Shown here: piece by piece, positions 1,546 through 11,545 of the stretch
Position numbering within the stretch: the first letter of the stretch is position 1
Layout: each line of letters begins with the position of its first letter
From: a bacterium
Lineage (GTDB): Bacteria > UBP14 > UBA6098 > 4484-93
Direction of reading: 5' to 3'
NCBI GenBank assembly: GCA_021158465.1
Contig: JAGGUN010000014.1
Coordinates: forward strand, 1 to 11,850
Length of the DNA stretch: 11,850 nucleotides
Translations under genes and position numbers: made by a program
Notes under the pieces: model-generated
Told to the model about the DNA's origin: nothing
The model's input: the letters and a program-made list of their open reading frames with translations, nothing else
Databases searched by the model: none

Positions 1546-4500
1546 TCAGAAGCTATACCTCGCCGATAGGTTACCGAAATGCTCCGGCTTGTTCCCTTTT
1601 CTTGCCTTGCCCCAGTATCTGCCGACAAGCGATAACCCCTCGACTACACCCGAGCGAATGGACACCTCCCAGCGTAGATTCTCACCGGGAGAATTGCCCT
1701 CCAGCATACCGTAAGGCAAAAGCCCATCATAATCCGTCTTGACATAGGAAAAAGTCATTTCTCCATGAGCAGATATACCACCTATCCTGACACCAGCACC
1801 GGCACTTCCCTTTTCTGTTATTGCCCTGGCGCCAAGTTCAAGCTCGCGGGAGGATGTTATACCGATGGAGAGTTTCGGCTCGACTATGCCAAGCTCCTTT
1901 GTGGCGGAAAGCTCGCTGGCATAGCGTGAGATGTCGTGCTCGGAGTAGCTGTTTTCGACATAATCTACCCGGTCACGCTCATAGTAGATTTCGCATTCGA
2001 CATTGAGAGATCTCCTCCTGTATAAGATTTTAATCAGTCGTTTGGTGTAGTAGTCAAAATGTTTTCCTGTGATGTTTGCTGCATCCATTCGGCGGCTGAG
2101 CCTGTATCCAAGCTCGAGTGAGGCAGGCTGAAGGTGAAACAGATATATATTCGTGATGCAGTTGTAGTAGGCAAGTGAGTTTTTGCTATCGCTGAGGTCG
2201 CTGGGTAATAGTATAAATTTCTTTGAGCTCTCGTCCGATGTTCCCTTTTTGCTGATGAGGTTCACCCTGTATCCGAGCCGTTTTGTGTCGCCTCGCAAAA
2301 ATATCTTCCCCTCGAATGTTGAGCCGGGGATGAAATCGCCTGTATATTTAATCTGCCGGATGTAGTTACCGTAGGCGTCCGGGACGAACTCGTTCCGCTC
2401 GGGATCGAATATATAGTTGCCTTCACCGTAAGGCACCTCGATATACTCATAGGTATAACATGCTGTCTGGGTGTTGGAAAAGTTATATCTCAGCCGTGCG
2501 CTATGGTGTGAGCCGAGCTTCTGTGAAAGCTCGATGTATGCAAGGTCAAAGCTGTTATCTGGAAGCGATGCTTCCTTCGCATACTTGTTCTTCCGGTGCA
2601 GGATGTTGCTGTTTGCCGAGAAGCTTTTGTATTTCCCTTTTACAGAGTATGAGACCTCGTCGAAGATGAGGTAGTTTGTAATACCGTCTCTGTCCTGGCG
2701 GCGGTGGGTAAATCCCAGGCTCTGGTTTATTCCGGAAAGGTTTAATGAAATCTCGGGGGAATACTCGATAAGGCGGGAGCTTTTTCCCGTTTCCTCGCGG
2801 CGGAGGGAGAAACCTGTGCTGATTGCTCCGAGCCTTATCTGTGAGGCTGAGTTAAATAACGAGTAAGAGGCTTTTACCCTGCCGATATTGAGGTTGTTTC
2901 TCGATGAGAACCTCTCCGTGGATATGTTAAGTTCGCCGTTTGACCTCTTCGACTTCATTGTATCCGACAGGGATAATTCCCCGTATCCGAGGGTGAGTTT
3001 TACCCATTGAAAGGGTTGCCAGCTGGCGTTTGTACTGAACATTTCAACATCGTCGTCTGGTAGGGTAGATATTCCCCAGTTTCTTGCTTCATCGGCATCG
3101 TCGAGTCGTGATAGCGGATGGAACCGTCTGTTCCGCCTGATTGCCTCGCCTGCAAGTGTAAAGCCGCTATGGGCAAGTTCCCCTTTTATCCTGAACCCGT
3201 CCGATGTGTTGTCGCCATCATCTATCTTCGACGCGCTGTTCATATCGTAGGTGCTTATGCCGTATTCGGCTTTCGCGCTGATCACCTCCTTGTGCGAGAA
3301 TTCTGCTCCGAGTGTAACCATCTGAGCTGACTCTGGGAGAGGAATCAGCTTCCTCGGCGAGTATCTGCCACCCTCTCCGATGTAGCTGTAATGCTCTCCC
3401 TCCTTAATGTATTCCCCGTTTCCCTCGCCCATATCGTAGAATGTGACAACATAGCTTCCTGTGTCGCCGCCGACATAGACGAAGTGCGAGTCGACAAGTA
3501 TATAATCTCCGGAGTCACTCTCCGTGTATGAGAGTATGTATGCGCTATCGGGGTTATCCCCTGCTGATGATAGGGATGATTGTTCCTCGTGTGAAAGTTC
3601 TGTTTCATCCGTTTCTCTGGCAAACCCACCGATGAATCGGAGTCCGCCGGTTGGTTCAAGCTCGAATGAGGTTAGGTAAAGCGTCTTCTGGTAATCTTCC
3701 CTTATATACTGGAAGTCGACCACTATCCGCGAGTCGTATCGCACGGGACAGCGGGATGTAAATGTTATCTGTGCGGATGAGTAGTCTATTATATAATCGT
3801 TGTTCTCACCTCGTTTGATGAGCCTTCCATCGAACCAGACACGCTCGCTCCCGGCGACGACAACAACATCTGTTGCTCCTTGTGGGGTTATCTCGTATGG
3901 TCCCTGAACCCCGTCCTCGGGCGTTATCCTGACACTGGCGAACTCACCTCTCTGGACACTCAACGCTCCTTCGCCATCGAATCCGCTGAACTTCGCATTC
4001 CCCATAACACCTTTCAGGCGCCTGTCAAGGGAGAGAAAATACCCTCGTTCTGTTTTCAAGTCAAAGTCGCCGAATGTCGAGACGAAGTGTGGTGAGAGGA
4101 ATTTGATAAACAGCTTGTCTATTTCTTCTAACTCCTCCGTTGTTCCCTCCGGCTGGATGGGCGATGTTCTGTCGGATATGGAGGCGACGATGTGGACATC
4201 CCGAGAGAGCTTTCCCCTTGCGAAGAGCGACAGCTCACCATCGACCTCGGGGGAGCGGTTTGTGCCGACCGTTATTGCACGAGATATCTGCCCAGAAGAT
4301 GCCACATCGGGAGAGCTAAAGTCAAAGGTAGGTGGTTTATACGCCGCCCTGACACCGGATACCGAATCGATACTCCTGTGGGCAAACTCACGGGACGACA
4401 CCGGAAGGTAGTTGTAGGAGATGCAGACCGTATCGCAGATACAGGAAGAATCAATGACAATTATGCTGGAATCAAGAATAAAGGCAAAAGGGCAGAAGGA

Positions 4501-4668
4501 GCTATCGGGTTTGCATAAAATTTTAATCGATGATGGTTCGATCACAGGGTCGGGAAGGGCGACCCGTTCGCATCCGGTGATGCAGAATTCCCTCGTTTTC
4601 CCCCATAGAGATATGGAGGTCATCAGTAAAACGAGAGAGAGAAATCTACTTAATCTGCGAGGTTTCAA
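1546..4668 (-). CDS. Large outer-membrane beta-barrel-type protein (1040 aa), function unknown
   Basis: The protein starts with a basic then hydrophobic signal peptide (residues 1-23). The start codon is TTG at 4668; a TGA lies four codons upstream in frame and the next Met is inside the signal peptide. Residues 29-82 contain seven cysteines. Residues 125-330 carry a conserved region I associate with a family of large envelope proteins in FCB-type and candidate-phylum genomes: ITVGTNRSPEVDGELSLFARGKL, then TSPIQPEGTTEELEEIDKLF, FGDFDL, VAGSERVWFDGRLIKRGENN followed by DYIIDY. Residues 330-1040 are alternating polar and hydrophobic segments with many aromatic ends, and the last residues are ARYSF, the terminal Phe typical of outer-membrane barrels. 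It could be a distant SprA-like translocon or a porin; I cannot decide. It is the second gene of a minus-strand operon and overlaps the end of the upstream gene by 23 nt, suggesting translational coupling. Confidence 0.75.
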   Translation of the reverse strand: MKPRRLSRFLSLVLLMTSISLWGKTREFCITGCERVALPDPVIEPSSIKILCKPDSSFCPFAFILDSSIIVIDSSCICDTVCISYNYLPVSSREFAHRSIDSVSGVRAAYKPPTFDFSSPDVASSGQISRAITVGTNRSPEVDGELSLFARGKLSRDVHIVASISDRTSPIQPEGTTEELEEIDKLFIKFLSPHFVSTFGDFDLKTERGYFLSLDRRLKGVMGNAKFSGFDGEGALSVQRGEFASVRITPEDGVQGPYEITPQGATDVVVVAGSERVWFDGRLIKRGENNDYIIDYSSAQITFTSRCPVRYDSRIVVDFQYIREDYQKTLYLTSFELEPTGGLRFIGGFARETDETELSHEEQSSLSSAGDNPDSAYILSYTESDSGDYILVDSHFVYVGGDTGSYVVTFYDMGEGNGEYIKEGEHYSYIGEGGRYSPRKLIPLPESAQMVTLGAEFSHKEVISAKAEYGISTYDMNSASKIDDGDNTSDGFRIKGELAHSGFTLAGEAIRRNRRFHPLSRLDDADEARNWGISTLPDDDVEMFSTNASWQPFQWVKLTLGYGELSLSDTMKSKRSNGELNISTERFSSRNNLNIGRVKASYSLFNSASQIRLGAISTGFSLRREETGKSSRLIEYSPEISLNLSGINQSLGFTHRRQDRDGITNYLIFDEVSYSVKGKYKSFSANSNILHRKNKYAKEASLPDNSFDLAYIELSQKLGSHHSARLRYNFSNTQTACYTYEYIEVPYGEGNYIFDPERNEFVPDAYGNYIRQIKYTGDFIPGSTFEGKIFLRGDTKRLGYRVNLISKKGTSDESSKKFILLPSDLSDSKNSLAYYNCITNIYLFHLQPASLELGYRLSRRMDAANITGKHFDYYTKRLIKILYRRRSLNVECEIYYERDRVDYVENSYSEHDISRYASELSATKELGIVEPKLSIGITSSRELELGARAITEKGSAGAGVRIGGISAHGEMTFSYVKTDYDGLLPYGMLEGNSPGENLRWEVSIRSGVVEGLSLVGRYWGKARKGNKPEHFGNLSARYSF

Positions 4669-5407
4669 TTCTGTCTTTCAGGAGAAAAAAGACTGTTCCC
4701 GCCGATATATCCACATCCTTTGTCCCCTCGGGCAGGGTGATGGTTTTCCAGTCAGGGCTGTTGTATCTTTTTAGGCAGAGCTTATCCCCGATAATGATGA
4801 TCCATGGGGGGTGATACTTTATTCGCTCGGGGGCGCAACTCTCAGGAATATGGATTTTGCCGGTTATCATCTCGAGCTCGTCGAAGGTAATTATCTGGTT
4901 TTCCGAGGGGATAAGGAGCATATTCCCGTCCATATCTTCTGTCTCCCTTGGAATGAGTGAGCTGAGCTGTGAGGCAGATAGTTTCCCGGAGGAGAGCTTG
5001 TAGATGCTTTTTCGGTTGCCAGTTAGAAGGAATATCCCGAAGTATGTGATGGAGAAGCTGATAGGGTCGATCTCCGATATGTCCATGCTGGATATCTTGG
5101 CGAGCTCTCGGTCTGTTCTTACGAGGATTCCGTCTGCGTTGAGGAAATAGAATATAGCGTCATCCTGTGAGACAAACTTTACCAACGGGGCATCTCCCAG
5201 CTGTGATGTAACGGTTCTTTCTGTTAGTGTATCGAGATATACGGCGCTATTTCCTCCCTCATATATTGTGTATATTCTCCCGAAACCGCTCACATAAAGC
5301 ATCTTCGGCTCACCGAGAGATGTATCCACGGGGAATGCAGAGCAGGCAAGAGGAAGCAAGAGAAGAAGAATGTTTGTTACTGCCTGTATCTTCCGTTTCC
5401 ACGCCAT
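4646..5407 (-). CDS. Exported beta-propeller-like protein (253 aa), function unknown
   Basis: The start is set by an AGAGGAG ribosome site (5415-5409 on the minus strand) just before the ATG at 5407. Residues 1-24 are a signal peptide: MAWKRK followed by a leucine-rich core and ACSA. The Cys at 22 is preceded by Pro-Leu-Ala, a poor lipobox, so cleavage by signal peptidase I after Ala24 is as likely as lipidation. The rest shows about six repeats of roughly 40 residues, each with short beta-strand pairs, for example LYVSGFGRIYTIYE (37-50), AIFYFLNADGILVRTD (84-99), IFLLTGNRKSIYKLSSG (125-141) and VFFLLKDRIETS (239-250). This fits a small beta-propeller on the periplasmic or outer face. No catalytic motif is visible. 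It is the first gene of a two-gene operon with the outer-membrane protein gene at 4668-1546 and may be its periplasmic partner; that is inference. Confidence 0.72.
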   Translation of the reverse strand: MAWKRKIQAVTNILLLLLPLACSAFPVDTSLGEPKMLYVSGFGRIYTIYEGGNSAVYLDTLTERTVTSQLGDAPLVKFVSQDDAIFYFLNADGILVRTDRELAKISSMDISEIDPISFSITYFGIFLLTGNRKSIYKLSSGKLSASQLSSLIPRETEDMDGNMLLIPSENQIITFDELEMITGKIHIPESCAPERIKYHPPWIIIIGDKLCLKRYNSPDWKTITLPEGTKDVDISAGTVFFLLKDRIETSQIK

Positions 5408-5423
5408 AACTCCTCTGAATCAA

Positions 5424-5452
5424 ATTATAGATTTACCTACTGGATTTTCCAA
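5424..5452 (-). promoter_or_regulatory. Promoter of the minus-strand operon
   Basis: On the minus strand TTGGAA (5452-5447) and a perfect TATAAT (5429-5424) are separated by 17 bp. Transcription would start about seven bases further, near 5417, immediately before the AGAGGAG ribosome site, so the leader would be only about ten bases. The promoter lies back to back with the plus-strand promoter at 5464-5491. Confidence 0.6.
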
Positions 5453-5463
5453 GAAAATTTTGT

Positions 5464-5491
5464 TTGCTATGGAAAAAGTTTTATTTATAAT
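5464..5491 (+). promoter_or_regulatory. Promoter of the five-gene plus-strand operon
   Basis: TTGCTA at 5464-5469 and a perfect TATAAT at 5486-5491 are 16 bp apart, giving an expected start near 5498 and a leader of about 28 nt. An in-frame ATG at 5469 falls inside the promoter and so cannot be the start of the message made here. Confidence 0.58.
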
Positions 5492-5514
5492 TAATAGCGA
5501 TGGGGCACATCTTA

Positions 5515-5520
5515 AGGAGG
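5515..5520 (+). promoter_or_regulatory. Shine-Dalgarno AGGAGG that fixes the start at 5526
   Basis: A perfect AGGAGG lies five bases before the ATG at 5526. It decides between this start and longer in-frame possibilities at 5370 and 5469, which overlap the divergent promoters. Confidence 0.8.
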
Positions 5521-5525
5521 GGGTT

Positions 5526-7790
5526 ATGGTGGCAATTTTGGTATTACTTCTTCTGGTTTCCCCTGTGTTTGCTAGCACTGGTGGACCTGATGATTATGGT
5601 TACCAGTGGATAGATTCGAGGGAGGCGGGAGGTCCTGTTTTCAACTGGATCGACATAACGGAAACAGGAACGCGTCTTTCGCTGACTGATGACTCTCACC
5701 AGAATATCCCCTTGGGAGGCACATTCTTCTTTTACGGGAACGGATATACGAATGTCAATGTCTGCTCGAACGGATGGCTGAGCTTCACATACGGAGGGAG
5801 CAACATCTCGCTCCCTGCCATACCGAACACTGGGAACCCCAATGCGCTGCTTGCTGTTTATAACTGTGATCTGAATCCGTCGTATTCTGTGGCGCCAGGG
5901 GTGTTCTATGAGAGGCGTGGGAACCTGTTTATCATTGAATATGCCATCTGTGAGTATGGGCATTCTTCCGGTCCTGTTCAGTATTTTGAGGTTATTCTCG
6001 ATATGGGTGGTGGAACGATTCTCTATCAATATCGTTCTACAAGTGTCAGTTCGAGGACCGTTACGATAGGGATTGAGAATGAAACAGGCACGACAGGGCT
6101 TCAGTATTATCGTTCTTCGGGTGCTGTTTTTAGTAACCTTGCTGTTCTGTTTTATGCGTATCCGACTGCTCCGCTTCCGTATTCCTGCGATTTTGATACC
6201 TCAACAGGGGATTTTGTTCTTGTGGACAGTTCGGCAACCAACTGGGAGCTTGGTTCACCGGTTGGGTTTTCTGCCCATTCGACGCCAAACTGTTGGGGGA
6301 CTGTCCTCTCGGGGAGTTACACAGGGCTTGCCGATTGGTGGCTATGGAGCCCGTCGTTTATACTTCAGGCTGTGGATGCGGCGAAGCTTCGCTTTTGGCA
6401 CTGGTATGAGACGGAGGAGGGAGCTGATGGTGGGAATGTTTCTCTCTCTGTCGATGGTGGTTTGACCTGGAACCTGATAACACCCATCGGCGGGTATCCT
6501 GTTGAGTCAATGGAGGGGGCATCGGCAATATTTGGTGAGCCTGCGTTCTCCGGTGTAAGCGATGGCTGGGAACAGGTTACATTCGACATATCGGCATACT
6601 GTGGATACAATGTTGTGATCGGGTTCCATTTTGCGTCTGATGCAACGGAGAGTGATCATTCTGGCTGGTATATAGATGATGTCGAGGTGTATGAACCATC
6701 TGGGACGGTTGTTGGCACTGTGGACCTTTCCCGTACAGAGCCGGATGATGGTGTTCTTGTGGAGATCCCCGATGTAGACAGGAGCACCTATACGGACTCG
6801 CTGGGGGGGTATGTTTTGAGCTATGTTCCTGCTGGTGTGTGGAATGTGGTCTTTTCGAAGCCTGGCTTTGCTCCGGTGACTGTTCCGGGTGTTGAGGTTG
6901 TTGAGGATGATACGGTGAGGGTCGATGTTACTTTGTATCACTCGCTCTTCAACTCCGATTTCGAGGATTCGGCTGGAACATTTCTTGCTTCTCCGGACAC
7001 GGTTGGTTGGGAATGGGGGACGCCGGATTCGTCGCTTGTTATCCCTTTTTCTGGCAGCCGTTGCTGGGGGACAAACCTGTCTGGGAGGTATTCTCCCTAT
7101 GCCAACTGGACGCTTGATGTGCCGCTTCACCTTGAGGACACGGAGCATCCGGTTCTGCGGTTCTATCATTGGTATCAGACAGAGGGAGCGGAAGGATACA
7201 TATTCGATGGGGGGAATATAAAGGCTATTGTTGATACGGTGACGATGGCGGCGGAGATCCTTTATCCTGTTCCGGGCTTCTCGGAGTATGATGGGGTGTG
7301 TGCGTCCATAAATCCGTTTTTGGGAGGAGAGCCTGTTTATGGTGGCTTCGACAGCACAAGATGCTGGGAGGAGGCGAGGTTTGACCTTGTTGACTATGCT
7401 GGGGGATTTATATACTTGCGGTTTCACTTTGCGTCCGATGCTGCGTCGAACTACTCCGGGTGGTTCTTCGATGATCTGGCTGTAATCGACGGGTTGTCTG
7501 TCCGTGAGCTGGATGTTACGCCGGGGCGATTTTTCCTCTCGAACGGGTATCCGAACCCGTTTAACTCATCTGTGTCGCTTGGATTCTTTTTGCCTCGCCC
7601 GGGAGAGATAACATTTGAGATATACAGCATAGGTGGCGAGCTGGTTGCGAGGAGATTTGTTACGGCTGGCTCTGGCTATGGTGAGGTTGTATTTGACAAG
7701 GAGTTCCTCTCTGCTCCGAGTGGGTTGTATCTTGTGAGGGCTGAGTCTTGCGGTGTGCAACAGACGAGGAAACTGCTCCTCTTGAAATAG
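5526..7790 (+). CDS. Multidomain T9SS-secreted protein: nidogen-like, two MAM-like domains, carboxypeptidase-regulatory-like domain
   Basis: The product has 754 residues. Residues 1-16 are a hydrophobic signal peptide ending VFA, with no basic N-region. Residues 20-210 resemble the beta-rich nidogen-like exterior domains of secreted bacterial proteins (GGTFFFYGNGYTNVNVCSNG, then a WLSF motif). Two related domains follow at about 220-390 and 477-655; they share CWGT-x-LSG-x-Y, LRF-x-HWY-x-TE, FHFASDA and SGW-x-x-DD, the pattern of MAM-like domains accompanying M6 (immune inhibitor A) peptidases. Between them, residues 392-470 look like a carboxypeptidase-regulatory-like fold (SLGGYVLSYVPAGVWNVVFS). 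Residues 660-754 are a T9SS type A sorting domain: LSNGYPNPFN, EITFEIYSIGGELV, APSGLYLVRAE, ending KLLLLK. No HExxH or other peptidase motif was seen, so an adhesin or glycan-binding role is more likely than proteolysis. It heads the operon; its stop directly abuts the next ATG. Confidence 0.85.
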   Translation: MVAILVLLLLVSPVFASTGGPDDYGYQWIDSREAGGPVFNWIDITETGTRLSLTDDSHQNIPLGGTFFFYGNGYTNVNVCSNGWLSFTYGGSNISLPAIPNTGNPNALLAVYNCDLNPSYSVAPGVFYERRGNLFIIEYAICEYGHSSGPVQYFEVILDMGGGTILYQYRSTSVSSRTVTIGIENETGTTGLQYYRSSGAVFSNLAVLFYAYPTAPLPYSCDFDTSTGDFVLVDSSATNWELGSPVGFSAHSTPNCWGTVLSGSYTGLADWWLWSPSFILQAVDAAKLRFWHWYETEEGADGGNVSLSVDGGLTWNLITPIGGYPVESMEGASAIFGEPAFSGVSDGWEQVTFDISAYCGYNVVIGFHFASDATESDHSGWYIDDVEVYEPSGTVVGTVDLSRTEPDDGVLVEIPDVDRSTYTDSLGGYVLSYVPAGVWNVVFSKPGFAPVTVPGVEVVEDDTVRVDVTLYHSLFNSDFEDSAGTFLASPDTVGWEWGTPDSSLVIPFSGSRCWGTNLSGRYSPYANWTLDVPLHLEDTEHPVLRFYHWYQTEGAEGYIFDGGNIKAIVDTVTMAAEILYPVPGFSEYDGVCASINPFLGGEPVYGGFDSTRCWEEARFDLVDYAGGFIYLRFHFASDAASNYSGWFFDDLAVIDGLSVRELDVTPGRFFLSNGYPNPFNSSVSLGFFLPRPGEITFEIYSIGGELVARRFVTAGSGYGEVVFDKEFLSAPSGLYLVRAESCGVQQTRKLLLLK

Positions 7791-9020
7791 ATGAGACTTC
7801 TCTTTTTGACCCAATTTTTCCCACCCGAGATAGGTGCATCCCCAAGGAGGATGTGGGAGTTTGTGAGCATCCTCAAGAGTAGGGGGCATGAGGTTATTGT
7901 CGTTGCTGAGGTTCCGAACTACCCCAAGGGGGCTGTATTCCCCGGGTATAAGAACCTTTTCCCGTTTCAGAGGGAGATCTACGACGGTGTGCGTGTCTAC
8001 CGGACCTACATTGCTGGTATGAAGCGTAGGAACCTCATTGAGAGGGTTGCGTCTTACTTCTCGTATATGTTTTGTGCGGTATTTACATCGCTTTTCATCC
8101 GGGAGATCGATCTTATCTTTGCAACAACGCCCTCGCCTTTTAATGGGCTTGTGGGAAAGATTGTCGGGGTTCTGAAGCGGAAGAGGTATATTCTCGATGT
8201 CAGAGACCTCTGGCCTGAAGCAGCTGCACTTGTCGGCAAGCTGGAATCGGGAATGCTCCTCACGACAGCGCTCTTCCTCTCCAGAACAATATATCAGGAT
8301 GCAGAGAGGATATCCGTTGCCATCCCGTACTTCGCGGACATCATATCCTCCTTTTATGGGGTCGAGCGGGAGAGAATATACGACATACCAAATTTCGTCT
8401 ATCCAGAGGCTTTGGGTAGCAGAGCTATCCCCGAAGAAGAGATAAGGGAGCGATACGGGATAAAAAAAGAGGATTTCAACATACTTTACCTTGGCAATAT
8501 CGGGATAATGCAGGGGGTTGACATTCTTGTCGATGTGGCTGAAACGATTAAGCAGGAGAAGGATATCACGATAACTGTCATCGGTGAAGGGGTGGAAAAG
8601 GAAAGGGTCTGCTCGCTTGCTCGCAAGCGTTCTCTGGATAATATCCGTTTCTTTGATGGCGTGCCACAGGGAGAGGTAATGAGTATTCTCAGGGTGTTCG
8701 ACCTTTATCTTGTTATACTTGCCAAGAACCCTGTAAATGAATATGCCTTTCCTGCCAAGCTTGTTGACGCGATGTTCGTGGGAATACCTATTGTCTGTGC
8801 CATAGATGGTTATGGTAGAGCCCTTCTGCAGGAGCACAGGGCAGCCTATTGTGTTCCGGCGGGGGACGCGGAGGCTATGGTAGAGGCTATACTTTTCTTG
8901 AAAGGTTCTCCGTCTGTTCGAGGAGAGTTAGCCTGTTCGGGGCAAAGGTTTATCCGCGAGCACCGCTCTCGGGATGTGCTGTCAGGTAGGATAATCCGCT
9001 TTTTCGAGGGGGGAAGCTGA
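7791..9020 (+). CDS. Glycosyltransferase family 4 (WbuB-like)
   Basis: The 409-residue protein has the two-domain GT-B layout of cytoplasmic glycosyltransferases that move a sugar from a nucleotide donor to a growing lipid-linked glycan. The N-terminal domain begins FLTQFFPPEIGASPRR and includes DVRDLWPE at 136-143, a signature of the WbuB-like subgroup. The C-terminal donor-binding domain shows YLGNIGIMQGVDIL (233-246), VIGEGVEKERV (263-273) and FPAKLVDAMFVGIPIV (320-335). In the last motif the usual paired glutamates of GT4 enzymes are changed, as is common in WbuB relatives. The donor and acceptor sugars cannot be read from the sequence. The ATG follows the stop codon of the secreted-protein gene with no gap, and the ribosome site must lie within that gene's end. 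It probably contributes to O-antigen, capsule or the anchor glycan for T9SS cargo (inference). Confidence 0.9.
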   Translation: MRLLFLTQFFPPEIGASPRRMWEFVSILKSRGHEVIVVAEVPNYPKGAVFPGYKNLFPFQREIYDGVRVYRTYIAGMKRRNLIERVASYFSYMFCAVFTSLFIREIDLIFATTPSPFNGLVGKIVGVLKRKRYILDVRDLWPEAAALVGKLESGMLLTTALFLSRTIYQDAERISVAIPYFADIISSFYGVERERIYDIPNFVYPEALGSRAIPEEEIRERYGIKKEDFNILYLGNIGIMQGVDILVDVAETIKQEKDITITVIGEGVEKERVCSLARKRSLDNIRFFDGVPQGEVMSILRVFDLYLVILAKNPVNEYAFPAKLVDAMFVGIPIVCAIDGYGRALLQEHRAAYCVPAGDAEAMVEAILFLKGSPSVRGELACSGQRFIREHRSRDVLSGRIIRFFEGGS

Positions 9021-10270
9021 TGCGTGTTGCCCCTCCGAAAGAGTCTGTTCTGCTTGCGATAGCAGATGCCTTTTTTGAGCTTCTGGCTATCCTTGTGGCG
9101 TTTGTCGTTAGATTTCGCTTAGGTGTCGGTGGAGAGACGCTGTATAAGCCGTCTCCTACCTCCTACATCGCTCCTTGGCTTGTGCTCGCTGTTTTCTGGT
9201 TTGTTATTTTCTATGCCCACAATCTTTATGTGAAGACGCGCTTTACAACCGTTCTCACCGATATTTCCTCGCTTTTCAAGGCAGTCTTTGTTGGGATACT
9301 CATTCTTGCAGCCGTTACAGCGGACCCTGAACAACCGTTCCGGATACCGAGGCTTATCATATTCACCTATTGGGGGGCGCTTTTTGTTCTGCTTGCTGTG
9401 GAGAGAATTATCTTCAGGCGGACGGTCAGATCCCTCTGGAGGAGAGGGATAGATAAATCCCGTGTGCTTGTTGTCGGTGAGCCTGGATACATGAAGCTCG
9501 TAACCGGATATATAAATTCGCATCCGGAACTGGGAGCAACCGTTGTTACCTCCGGGCAACAGACAGATTTTGATGAGGTGGTCATTGTGCTTGAGAACCC
9601 GAAAGATAGCGAGATTATCGAAATCCTTGCAGGAATACCGCAGAAAGGAAAGCTGTTCCGTGTTATGTCCGGTATAACCGATGTCCTCAAGGGGAAGAGA
9701 GTGTCTAATCTCTATGGCGTTCCAACGGTTATCGTGAAGTTTGGTATATTAAGCGAATGGGGGAAAATCGGCAAGAGTATGTTTGAAATCACTTTTGTTT
9801 CTCTTCTGCTCGCCGCTTTTTCGCCGCTCTTTCTCCTGTGGGGATTACTCCTGCACGCAAAGGGTGAAAGATTTGAGAGGAGAGTGGTGGTTTCTGTCTC
9901 ATCTGAGAGGTTCTGTTTCCCTGTTTTGAAGGACCATTTCTTCCCTTTTTTCGAGCTGTTCCTGCTCTTGCCTGAGGTTCTCAAGGGAAGGATAACCCTT
10001 GTTGGTCCGCTGCTTTTCTCGCCGGAGGCTTACGAGAGGCTATCTGGTGAGCCAGCTATGAGCTTTTTTGCGAAGCAGAATGTCCGTTCGGGGCTTGTTT
10101 CGCTTTCCAGGTTTTATCTCTTGTCGCATCCGCAGGATATCAAGACCGCGATAGAATATGATATATTCTACATCGAGGGGTGGAGAATATTTCTGGACTT
10201 AGAGATAGTTATAAAGGCAATTTTCACTCCTCAGATATGGAGGTTATACAGGTATGAGGACGGAAGATAG
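9020..10270 (+). CDS. WbaP-like polyprenyl-phosphate sugar-1-phosphate transferase homologue, catalytic motif degenerate
   Basis: The 416-residue protein follows the layout of large WbaP/EpsL-type enzymes that load the first sugar onto undecaprenyl phosphate: four membrane segments (about 12-32, 49-69, 86-101, 111-131), a Rossmann-like middle domain (RVLVVGEPGYMKLV at 148-161; about 147-240), then a C-terminal segment with a membrane helix at 255-279. The tail matches the family: VLKGRITLVGP (320-330), VRSGLVSLSRF (355-365), IEYDIFYIEGWRIFLDLEIV (378-397). The usual SPGPVFFRQ and KFRSM motifs are missing, and the catalytic LDELPQL is replaced by FFELFLLL (310-317), so no Asp-Glu pair remains. 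The Arg of LVGPRP is Leu. It may be an inactive scaffold, a regulator or a strongly diverged enzyme. Its ATG shares one base with the preceding stop (TGATG), with a purine-rich GAGGGGGGAAG ribosome site in front. Confidence 0.78.
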   Translation: MRVAPPKESVLLAIADAFFELLAILVAFVVRFRLGVGGETLYKPSPTSYIAPWLVLAVFWFVIFYAHNLYVKTRFTTVLTDISSLFKAVFVGILILAAVTADPEQPFRIPRLIIFTYWGALFVLLAVERIIFRRTVRSLWRRGIDKSRVLVVGEPGYMKLVTGYINSHPELGATVVTSGQQTDFDEVVIVLENPKDSEIIEILAGIPQKGKLFRVMSGITDVLKGKRVSNLYGVPTVIVKFGILSEWGKIGKSMFEITFVSLLLAAFSPLFLLWGLLLHAKGERFERRVVVSVSSERFCFPVLKDHFFPFFELFLLLPEVLKGRITLVGPLLFSPEAYERLSGEPAMSFFAKQNVRSGLVSLSRFYLLSHPQDIKTAIEYDIFYIEGWRIFLDLEIVIKAIFTPQIWRLYRYEDGR

Positions 10271-11027
10271 GTTTATGCGGCTCGTTCGGATACTGAAGCG
10301 GCTCAGGGGTAAGGATGGTTGTCCCTGGGACAGGAAGCAGACTTATACAACCCTTCGACCGCTTATGCTCGAGGAGCTGTATGAGATATTCGAGGCGATT
10401 GATGAGAGCTCCTTCGATAAGTTGAAAGAAGAGCTGGGCGACCTGCTGATGCACATACTCTTTCAGGCAGAGCTTGCTGAGGAGGAGGGTAAGTTTACGC
10501 TCGACGATGTGATCGATGGTATATCGGATAAGCTTGTTCGGAGGCATCCGCATGTATTTGGGGATGTGGAGGTTTCGTCTACGGATGAGATACTTGCCAA
10601 CTGGGCGAAGATAAAGATGCTCGAGCGAGCAAGGGAGGGTAGTAAGGTTTCTGCACTCGATGGGGTGCCGAAGGAACTTCCCGCCCTTTTGCGTGCCCAG
10701 AGGGTTCAGCAGAAGGCAAGCAGGGTCGGATTTGACTGGCAGAAAAAGGAGGATGTTGTCGATAAGGTGAATGAGGAACTGGAGGAGCTCAAGCAGGCTA
10801 TTAGAGCCGGGGATAAAGATGGTGTAGAGGAGGAGCTGGGGGACTTGCTCTTTGCTATAACCAATCTTGCGAGGTTTCTCGATATATCTGCCGAGATGGC
10901 GCTTCTGAAAAGTGTGAAGAAGTTCGAGGAACGGTTCAGGTACATTGAGGAGAAGCTTGATAAGCCTCTGTCTGATGCGACGCTCGAGGAGATGGATGAA
11001 CTCTGGAATAAATCGAAGGAGGAATGA
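10254..11027 (+). CDS. mazG: Nucleoside triphosphate pyrophosphohydrolase MazG
   Basis: The 257-residue protein has the two tandem MazG domains of the E. coli enzyme (263 residues). MazG hydrolyses nucleoside triphosphates to monophosphate and pyrophosphate in the cytoplasm, cleaning the nucleotide pool and lowering (p)ppGpp responses in E. coli. Domain one shows GCPWDRKQT (22-30) and the metal-binding pairs EExxE (40-44) and EELGD (59-63). Further motifs are RRHPHVFGD (97-105, approximate), NWAKIKMLE (116-124) and the linker SALDGVPKELPALLRAQR (133-150) with GFDW at 159-162. Domain two keeps EExxE (174-178) and EEELGD (192-197), so both sites look intact. It overlaps the preceding gene by 17 nt; TGGAGG at 10238-10243 is the likely ribosome site, ten bases before the ATG. 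Confidence 0.95.
   Translation: MRTEDRFMRLVRILKRLRGKDGCPWDRKQTYTTLRPLMLEELYEIFEAIDESSFDKLKEELGDLLMHILFQAELAEEEGKFTLDDVIDGISDKLVRRHPHVFGDVEVSSTDEILANWAKIKMLERAREGSKVSALDGVPKELPALLRAQRVQQKASRVGFDWQKKEDVVDKVNEELEELKQAIRAGDKDGVEEELGDLLFAITNLARFLDISAEMALLKSVKKFEERFRYIEEKLDKPLSDATLEEMDELWNKSKEE
11016..11022 (+). promoter_or_regulatory. Shine-Dalgarno AAGGAGG favouring the second of two adjacent ATGs
   Basis: AAGGAGG ends at 11022, only one base before the ATG at 11024 but four bases before the ATG at 11027. The second ATG therefore has the better spacing. It overlaps the MazG stop (11025-11027) by a single base. Confidence 0.65.
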
Positions 11028-11545
11028 TGGAAGGTATAATCCCTGCGATTATCAAGAGAAGAAGCATTCGAGGCTACAAGGATATTCCCATCGAGGAGGA
11101 GAAGATTTTGCGTCTTCTTGAGGCGGCGCGGCTCGCACCGTCTGCAAAGAACTTCCAGGAATGGCGTTTCGTTGTTGTCAGGGACAGGAATACCAGGGAG
11201 GAGCTTGCCCGTGCAGCGAGAGACCAGATGTTCATTGCGGGGGCTCCTGTTGTTATTGTTCTCTGCGCTGTGAATCGCGGATATAAGATGGCTTGCGGAC
11301 ATCCAGCTTTCTTGATTGACCTTGCGATTGCTGGAGAGCATATCTGTTTGCAGGCAGCGGAGGAAGGGCTTGGAACCTGCTGGATTGGGGCTTTCTATCA
11401 GGATAGGGTAAAGAAGATTCTCGGTATCCCCGATGATGTTTCCGTCGTTGCACTCATTCCAGTTGGATATCCCGATGCCCCTCCGCGGGAGTTCAGCAGA
11501 AAGCCGCTGGAGGAGATTGTTTCCTACGAGAGATGGAGCTTTTGA
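11027..11545 (+). CDS. Nitroreductase-family FMN-dependent oxidoreductase
   Basis: The protein has 172 residues from the second ATG (173 if the ATG at 11024 is used). It belongs to the FMN-dependent nitroreductase fold, which reduces nitro compounds, quinones or other acceptors with NAD(P)H, usually as a dimer. RRSIRGYKD (11-19) binds the FMN phosphate, APSAKNFQEWRFVVV (37-51) is the conserved Pro-Ser-x-x-Asn region, GLGTCWIGAF (114-123) lines the flavin, and PVGYPDAPPR with SRKPLEEIV (145-165) is the usual C-terminal block. It is short, as in the compact subgroup, and the physiological substrate cannot be inferred. No ferredoxin domain is attached. It is the last gene of the operon; no terminator hairpin is obvious behind it. 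Confidence 0.93.
   Translation: MEGIIPAIIKRRSIRGYKDIPIEEEKILRLLEAARLAPSAKNFQEWRFVVVRDRNTREELARAARDQMFIAGAPVVIVLCAVNRGYKMACGHPAFLIDLAIAGEHICLQAAEEGLGTCWIGAFYQDRVKKILGIPDDVSVVALIPVGYPDAPPREFSRKPLEEIVSYERWSF

Follow-up and report, generated by a model that had tools for sequence, protein, structure and literature searches.

The window analyzed here, a stretch of 11,850 nucleotides, carries on its plus strand a run of closely packed genes, one of which encodes a degenerate homologue of the large monotopic phosphoglycosyl transferases (Lg-PGTs). The genes of this run, and the parts of the degenerate protein, are as follows:

7791-9020, plus strand: GT4 glycosyltransferase of the WcaI/WbuB type, with the family motifs kept; probable functional partner of the next gene product
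9020-10270, plus strand: degenerate Lg-PGT homologue, an open frame with PF02397 and PF13727 matches over cut-off and an orthologue in a sister species (L034, 3232-4482)
9020-9451, plus strand: N-terminal four-helix membrane bundle, residues 1-144 (model helices 8-33, 46-66, 78-100 and 111-141)
9452-9748, plus strand: shortened Rossmann-like DUF, residues 145-243 (about 29 residues are absent around residue 178)
9701-9742, plus strand: segment aligned to the beta-hairpin that dimerises WbaP, residues 228-241 (alignment; model strands 229-231 and 234-238)
9755-9862, plus strand: equivalent of the re-entrant membrane helix, residues 246-281 (alignment; model helices 246-266 and 268-281, with a break near Pro269)
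9869-9973, plus strand: eroded active-site segment, residues 284-318 (SPGP, KFRSM, D.R.T and LDELPQ lost; F311 at the Asp position)
9974-10225, plus strand: retained C-terminal PGT fold, residues 319-402 (PF02397 match, E 7.7e-9; model fit to PglC)
10254-11027, plus strand: MazG nucleoside triphosphate pyrophosphohydrolase, same gene run
11024-11545, plus strand: nitroreductase-family protein, same gene run, overlapping the MazG gene by 4 nt

The GT4 stop shares one nucleotide with the start of the degenerate PGT gene (TGATG), and the latter overlaps the MazG gene by 17 nt; the first-pass annotation had likewise described an intact frame that overlaps its neighbours neatly. The feature that it placed at 9764-10240 is real, but covers no more than the C-terminal domain in a frame of 416 codons plus stop. 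MazG is probably unrelated in function to the degenerate PGT. Elsewhere in the window, 5370-7790 encodes a secreted protein (InhA-like MAM domains, a carboxypeptidase-regulatory-like domain and a weak Por secretion tail), and the stop of this gene abuts the GT4 start. Two long overlapping ORFs occupy the minus strand at 1546-4668 (1040 aa) and 4646-5407 (253 aa), and neither has a Pfam match.

Judged by its sequence, the 416-residue protein is a diverged, WbaP-like Lg-PGT homologue. It belongs to the PF02397 superfamily by homology over the curated cut-off (residues 319-402, 39.7 bits for a cut-off of 27), with partial coverage of the profile (positions 96-175 of 179), and also matches PF13727 (residues 68-211, 29.4 bits for a cut-off of 25). 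We assign it to the large type because a four-helix bundle and a shortened PF13727 DUF precede the PGT domain, which is the WbaP layout. In a profile-profile alignment, the N-terminal bundle region matches intact Lg-PGTs with 84.9 bits across residues 9-177, and profile positions 178-206, within the DUF, have no counterpart in the protein. The best NCBIfam model, TIGR03025 (exopolysaccharide polyprenyl glycosylphosphotransferase), scores 118.5 bits, under its cut-off of 295.55.

The defining feature of monotopic PGTs is described as an Asp-Glu dyad. In the alignment with intact homologues, the position of the catalytic Asp is occupied by Phe311 in the window protein and by Leu in the sister species, and the losses extend well beyond it: (i) the family motif KR..D reads K..FE, (ii) SPGPVFF.Q.R.G is rewritten to AKGERFERRVVV, (iii) KFRSM is deleted, (iv) GPRP has become GPLL (GPLF in the sister species), and (v) PGITG has become SGLVS. 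Only 40 residues separate the membrane helix from NVLKG, compared to about 69 in the family profile, so that about 29 are missing. The motif LKG.ITLVGP and the C-terminal helices EYDIFYIEGW...LDLEI are kept. These results agree with the first-pass annotation, which had recognized a sugar-1-phosphate transferase homologue devoid of a working active site, with KFRSM and SPGPVFFRQ absent and the loop between helix and dyad shortened; all the strings that it quoted lie in the 416-residue frame (FFELFLLL at residues 310-317, VLKGRITLVGP at 320-330, EYDIFYIEGW at 379-388 and DLEIV at 393-397). Its claim that the whole dyad is lost has to be narrowed to the loss of the nucleophilic Asp, since E312 falls on the dyad Glu in the profile-profile alignment and this Glu may thus survive. 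An intact dyad elsewhere in the protein was looked for by the alignments and by a six-frame profile search; none was found, and the six-frame search detected no family motif in another frame.

Since the nucleophilic Asp and the loops involved with Mg, the UDP-sugar and undecaprenyl phosphate are gone, the protein is very probably unable to transfer sugar-phosphate to undecaprenyl phosphate. If the active site had instead been rearranged, with E312 or another acid taking the part of the Asp, the protein could still be a working PGT; this would be in keeping with the position of E312 in that one alignment and with the fold kept in the predicted model. It is nevertheless very improbable, because the Asp and the SPGP, KFRSM, GPRP and arginine-bearing segments have all disappeared together and the activity of PglC requires Arg88 and Arg145, basic residues that bind undecaprenyl phosphate (PMC10519829). 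In the window protein, the later Arg position appears to read Ser and the segment preceding the dyad is deleted, although this part of the alignment is uncertain and the correspondence with Arg88 and Arg145 is a presumed one.

An AlphaFold2 model built from 26 sequences has modest confidence (pLDDT 68.6, pTM 0.45) and shows the four helices, the DUF core, a helix-break-helix at residues 246-281 and the C-terminal helices. It is biased towards the PGT fold because the alignment consists mostly of intact PGTs. WbaP (PDB 8T53) was the only Foldseek match at E <0.001 (E 3.1e-10). With VIA-align, the model superimposes on WbaP with Z 15.6 over 348 residues (rmsd 14.3 A), and its residues 245-405 superimpose on PglC (8e37) with Z 12.8 over 151 residues (rmsd 3.0 A); the re-entrant helix and the PGT fold are therefore present in the predicted model, which leans on PGT homologues. 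For an intact homologue (L035), a model built from that sequence set reaches Z 21.6 to WbaP and 19.1 to PglC. The DUF of this homologue matches dinucleotide-binding Rossmann domains with Z 12-14.5 whereas that of the window protein reaches only about 6, a drop suggesting that its nucleotide site is probably eroded too. The segment 228-241 aligns with the WbaP-type hairpin, but pLDDT is only about 36-57 there.

The sister species (Zixibacteria 4484_93, genome G001) belongs to the same genus as the window genome. Its orthologue, the only one known, is 84% identical across 416 residues without any gap, shares the same losses and lies in the same gene order (GT4, degenerate PGT, MazG, nitroreductase). 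For this species pair, dN/dS (Nei-Gojobori, bootstrap intervals over codons) is 0.176 for the degenerate PGT, compared to 0.135 for GT4, 0.127 for MazG, 0.155 for the nitroreductase and 0.068 for the internal control, the intact Lg-PGT that these two genomes also encode. The rate of the dead catalytic domain (dN 0.109, 0.075-0.152; dN/dS 0.18, 0.10-0.31) is about three times that of the intact one (dN 0.038, 0.022-0.054), as expected if catalysis is no longer selected, yet the dead domain is still under purifying selection. The DUF, hairpin segment included, is the best conserved domain (89% identity), the four-helix bundle (residues 1-144) has a dN/dS of 0.12, and residues 284-330 belong to the less conserved parts of the protein (77% identity; dN/dS 0.20, 0.07-0.49). 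On these rates, the constraint on the protein is relaxed compared to that on a working active site, yet clearly present.

A decaying pseudogene or a sequencing or assembly artefact would account for a change faster than that of the intact paralogue. This is the least probable of all the explanations weighed here, and we rejected it, in agreement with the first-pass annotation: the frame is open in two species, there are no indels, dN/dS is 0.18, the changes cluster in third positions of codons (44, 29 and 112 at the first, second and third positions), and no motif is out of frame.

A PF02397 match was found in all 17 genomes of the class, usually in one large and one small protein. The degenerate extra copy is confined among them to the two species of this genus, and the other PGT homologues that we read (from the class, other phyla and Lachnospiraceae) retain the Asp-Glu dyad. 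A profile search with the two sequences over 386 genomes revealed no third dyadless case, only the sister species; a scan of genome contigs with the single protein, which reaches close relatives only, gave the same result. The survey of PF02397 in 193 genomes concerns the strongest matches only, so that weak dyadless copies would go uncounted in it. The search of plasmids gave one weak, N-terminal match, and no PDB entry matched the protein when it was used alone as a sequence query. A limited search of the open-access literature found no report of PGT pseudoenzymes or catalytically inactive PGTs. What appears to be new, as far as this weak evidence of absence can indicate, is a conserved member without the dyad; family, fold and architecture were already known.

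In the tree, a stem of 2.95 changes per site, the longest internal branch, leads to the window and sister proteins, whose own tips measure 0.07 and 0.10. Such a long stem with short tips is the mark of much change followed by constraint. By path, the nearest rows come from family f2, within the same class, but a branch of this length is not placed reliably. An origin by duplication of the genome's own Lg-PGT was considered and not retained, since the tree does not group the two proteins, although the length of the branch keeps the tree from rejecting it. The long stem and subsequent constraint would also suit a neofunctionalised enzyme or binding protein, for example one acting on another polyprenyl substrate through E312 or other polar residues conserved in the rewritten segment (S292, S294, S295, E296, R297 and C299). 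We consider this unlikely, as the protein displays no recognisable new motif and the rewritten segment (284-330) is not among its well conserved parts.

As to the enzymes that could supply a lipid-linked sugar, the first-pass annotation had asked whether the genome encodes a second, intact PGT; it encodes two, a large one on contig C11 and a small one on C22. The intact Lg-PGT, found in both species, stands alone outside any polysaccharide cluster (L142, 10092-11510), beside a gene reading as an ATP synthase epsilon subunit, and L147 has the same arrangement. The small PGT lies downstream of a gene that reads, from its sequence, as a GT2. Its sequences in the two species (L002 on C22 and L148 on G001:C17) share 97% identity, with a dS of 0.058 against 0.34-0.68 for the other loci compared, and a recent exchange of this gene between the two species is possible. 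The genome also encodes flippase-type (PF01943) and Wzy-type (PF04932) proteins, and lipid-linked glycan assembly therefore probably exists in this cell.

The GT4 is, at close identity, limited to this genus, matching the distribution of the degenerate PGT. Two of its nine distant relatives outside the class (L169, on the minus strand, and L171, 1378-3309; family f72) are fusions with a small PGT, in ORFs of about 645 aa that combine a WcaI/WbuB-type GT4 with a PGT whose DELPN is intact. A GT4 of this type can therefore work beside a PGT. The 1.5 kb flanks of the other seven contain no PGT motif. In genomes of family f2, from this class, the GT4s and the PGTs lie on different contigs and consequently do not show an ancestral arrangement.

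Given the coupling with GT4 and the natural GT4-PGT fusions, our best guess, with a probability of about 0.45, is that the protein is a pseudoenzyme derived from an Lg-PGT and serves as an inner-membrane anchor or scaffold for the coupled GT4. It would sit in the inner membrane with its bundle, DUF core, re-entrant helix and C-terminal membrane-surface helices kept, and would hold at the membrane the translationally coupled GT4, which would add its sugar to the undecaprenyl-pyrophosphate sugar made by one of the two intact PGTs. The membrane topology, the binding of GT4 and the identity of the acceptor are inferred. Selection keeps the bundle together with the DUF core and the helices of the membrane surface, which suits a structural role. 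Conversely, GT4 enzymes of the WcaI/WbuB type often bind membranes unaided, which speaks against an anchor, as do the seven of nine relatives lacking a flanking PGT motif and the possibility that E312 is the old Glu.

The main rival, which is somewhat doubtful, is a regulatory or structural heterodimer with the intact Lg-PGT of contig C11, in which the dead subunit would tune the live one or place it beside GT4. It is suggested by two characterized systems. WbaP is a homodimer formed through the DUF hairpin, is inhibited by UMP and has a DUF implicated in sensing (PMC10942596), and EpsZ of Myxococcus xanthus is an Lg-PGT whose active dimer depends on a partner, EpsW, that promotes its dimerisation (PMC12802240). 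The presence of the intact Lg-PGT in both species and the conservation of the DUF with its hairpin segment are consistent with such a pairing. However, the two paralogues are very diverged and ungrouped in the tree, and the DUF that would mediate it is about 29 residues short, with Rossmann matches well below the Z of 14.5 of the intact control model.

Besides the preferred anchor or scaffold for GT4, we tentatively envisage a dedicated pseudo-PGT subunit that pairs with the live Lg-PGT and/or GT4 and controls where or when glycan synthesis starts. If true, it would be a pseudoenzyme regulator within a superfamily said to be defined by its dyad. A selected Asp-less member beside a glycosyltransferase would separate the scaffold role of Lg-PGTs (bundle, DUF, re-entrant helix) from catalysis and would provide a natural test of whether Lg-PGTs bring the glycosyltransferase of the next step into a membrane complex.

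Among known systems, WbaP of Salmonella enterica (PF13727 and PF02397) is the best structural match and has the same succession of bundle, DUF, re-entrant helix and PGT fold; the window protein differs from it by the absence of the catalytic Asp and substrate loops, by its shortened DUF and, as the rmsd to WbaP indicates, by the placement of domains in the model. PglC of Campylobacter concisus (PDB 8E37, 8G1N) has the catalytic-domain fold of the model, but its Asp-Glu dyad, Arg88/Arg145 and mobile loop are lost or rewritten here. The GT4-PGT fusions (bifunctional PGTs) link the same type of GT4 to a PGT-fold domain; theirs is an intact small PGT, whereas the genes are separate here and the PGT has a large architecture and a dead site. 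EpsZ/EpsW offers a precedent for a regulatory partner of an Lg-PGT, although that partner is a response regulator and not a dead PGT. Finally, EcpK, a tyrosine pseudokinase of M. xanthus, is reported to be a pseudoenzyme important for exopolysaccharide synthesis (PMC12004946); it differs from the putative pseudo-PGT by its fold and by the step concerned.
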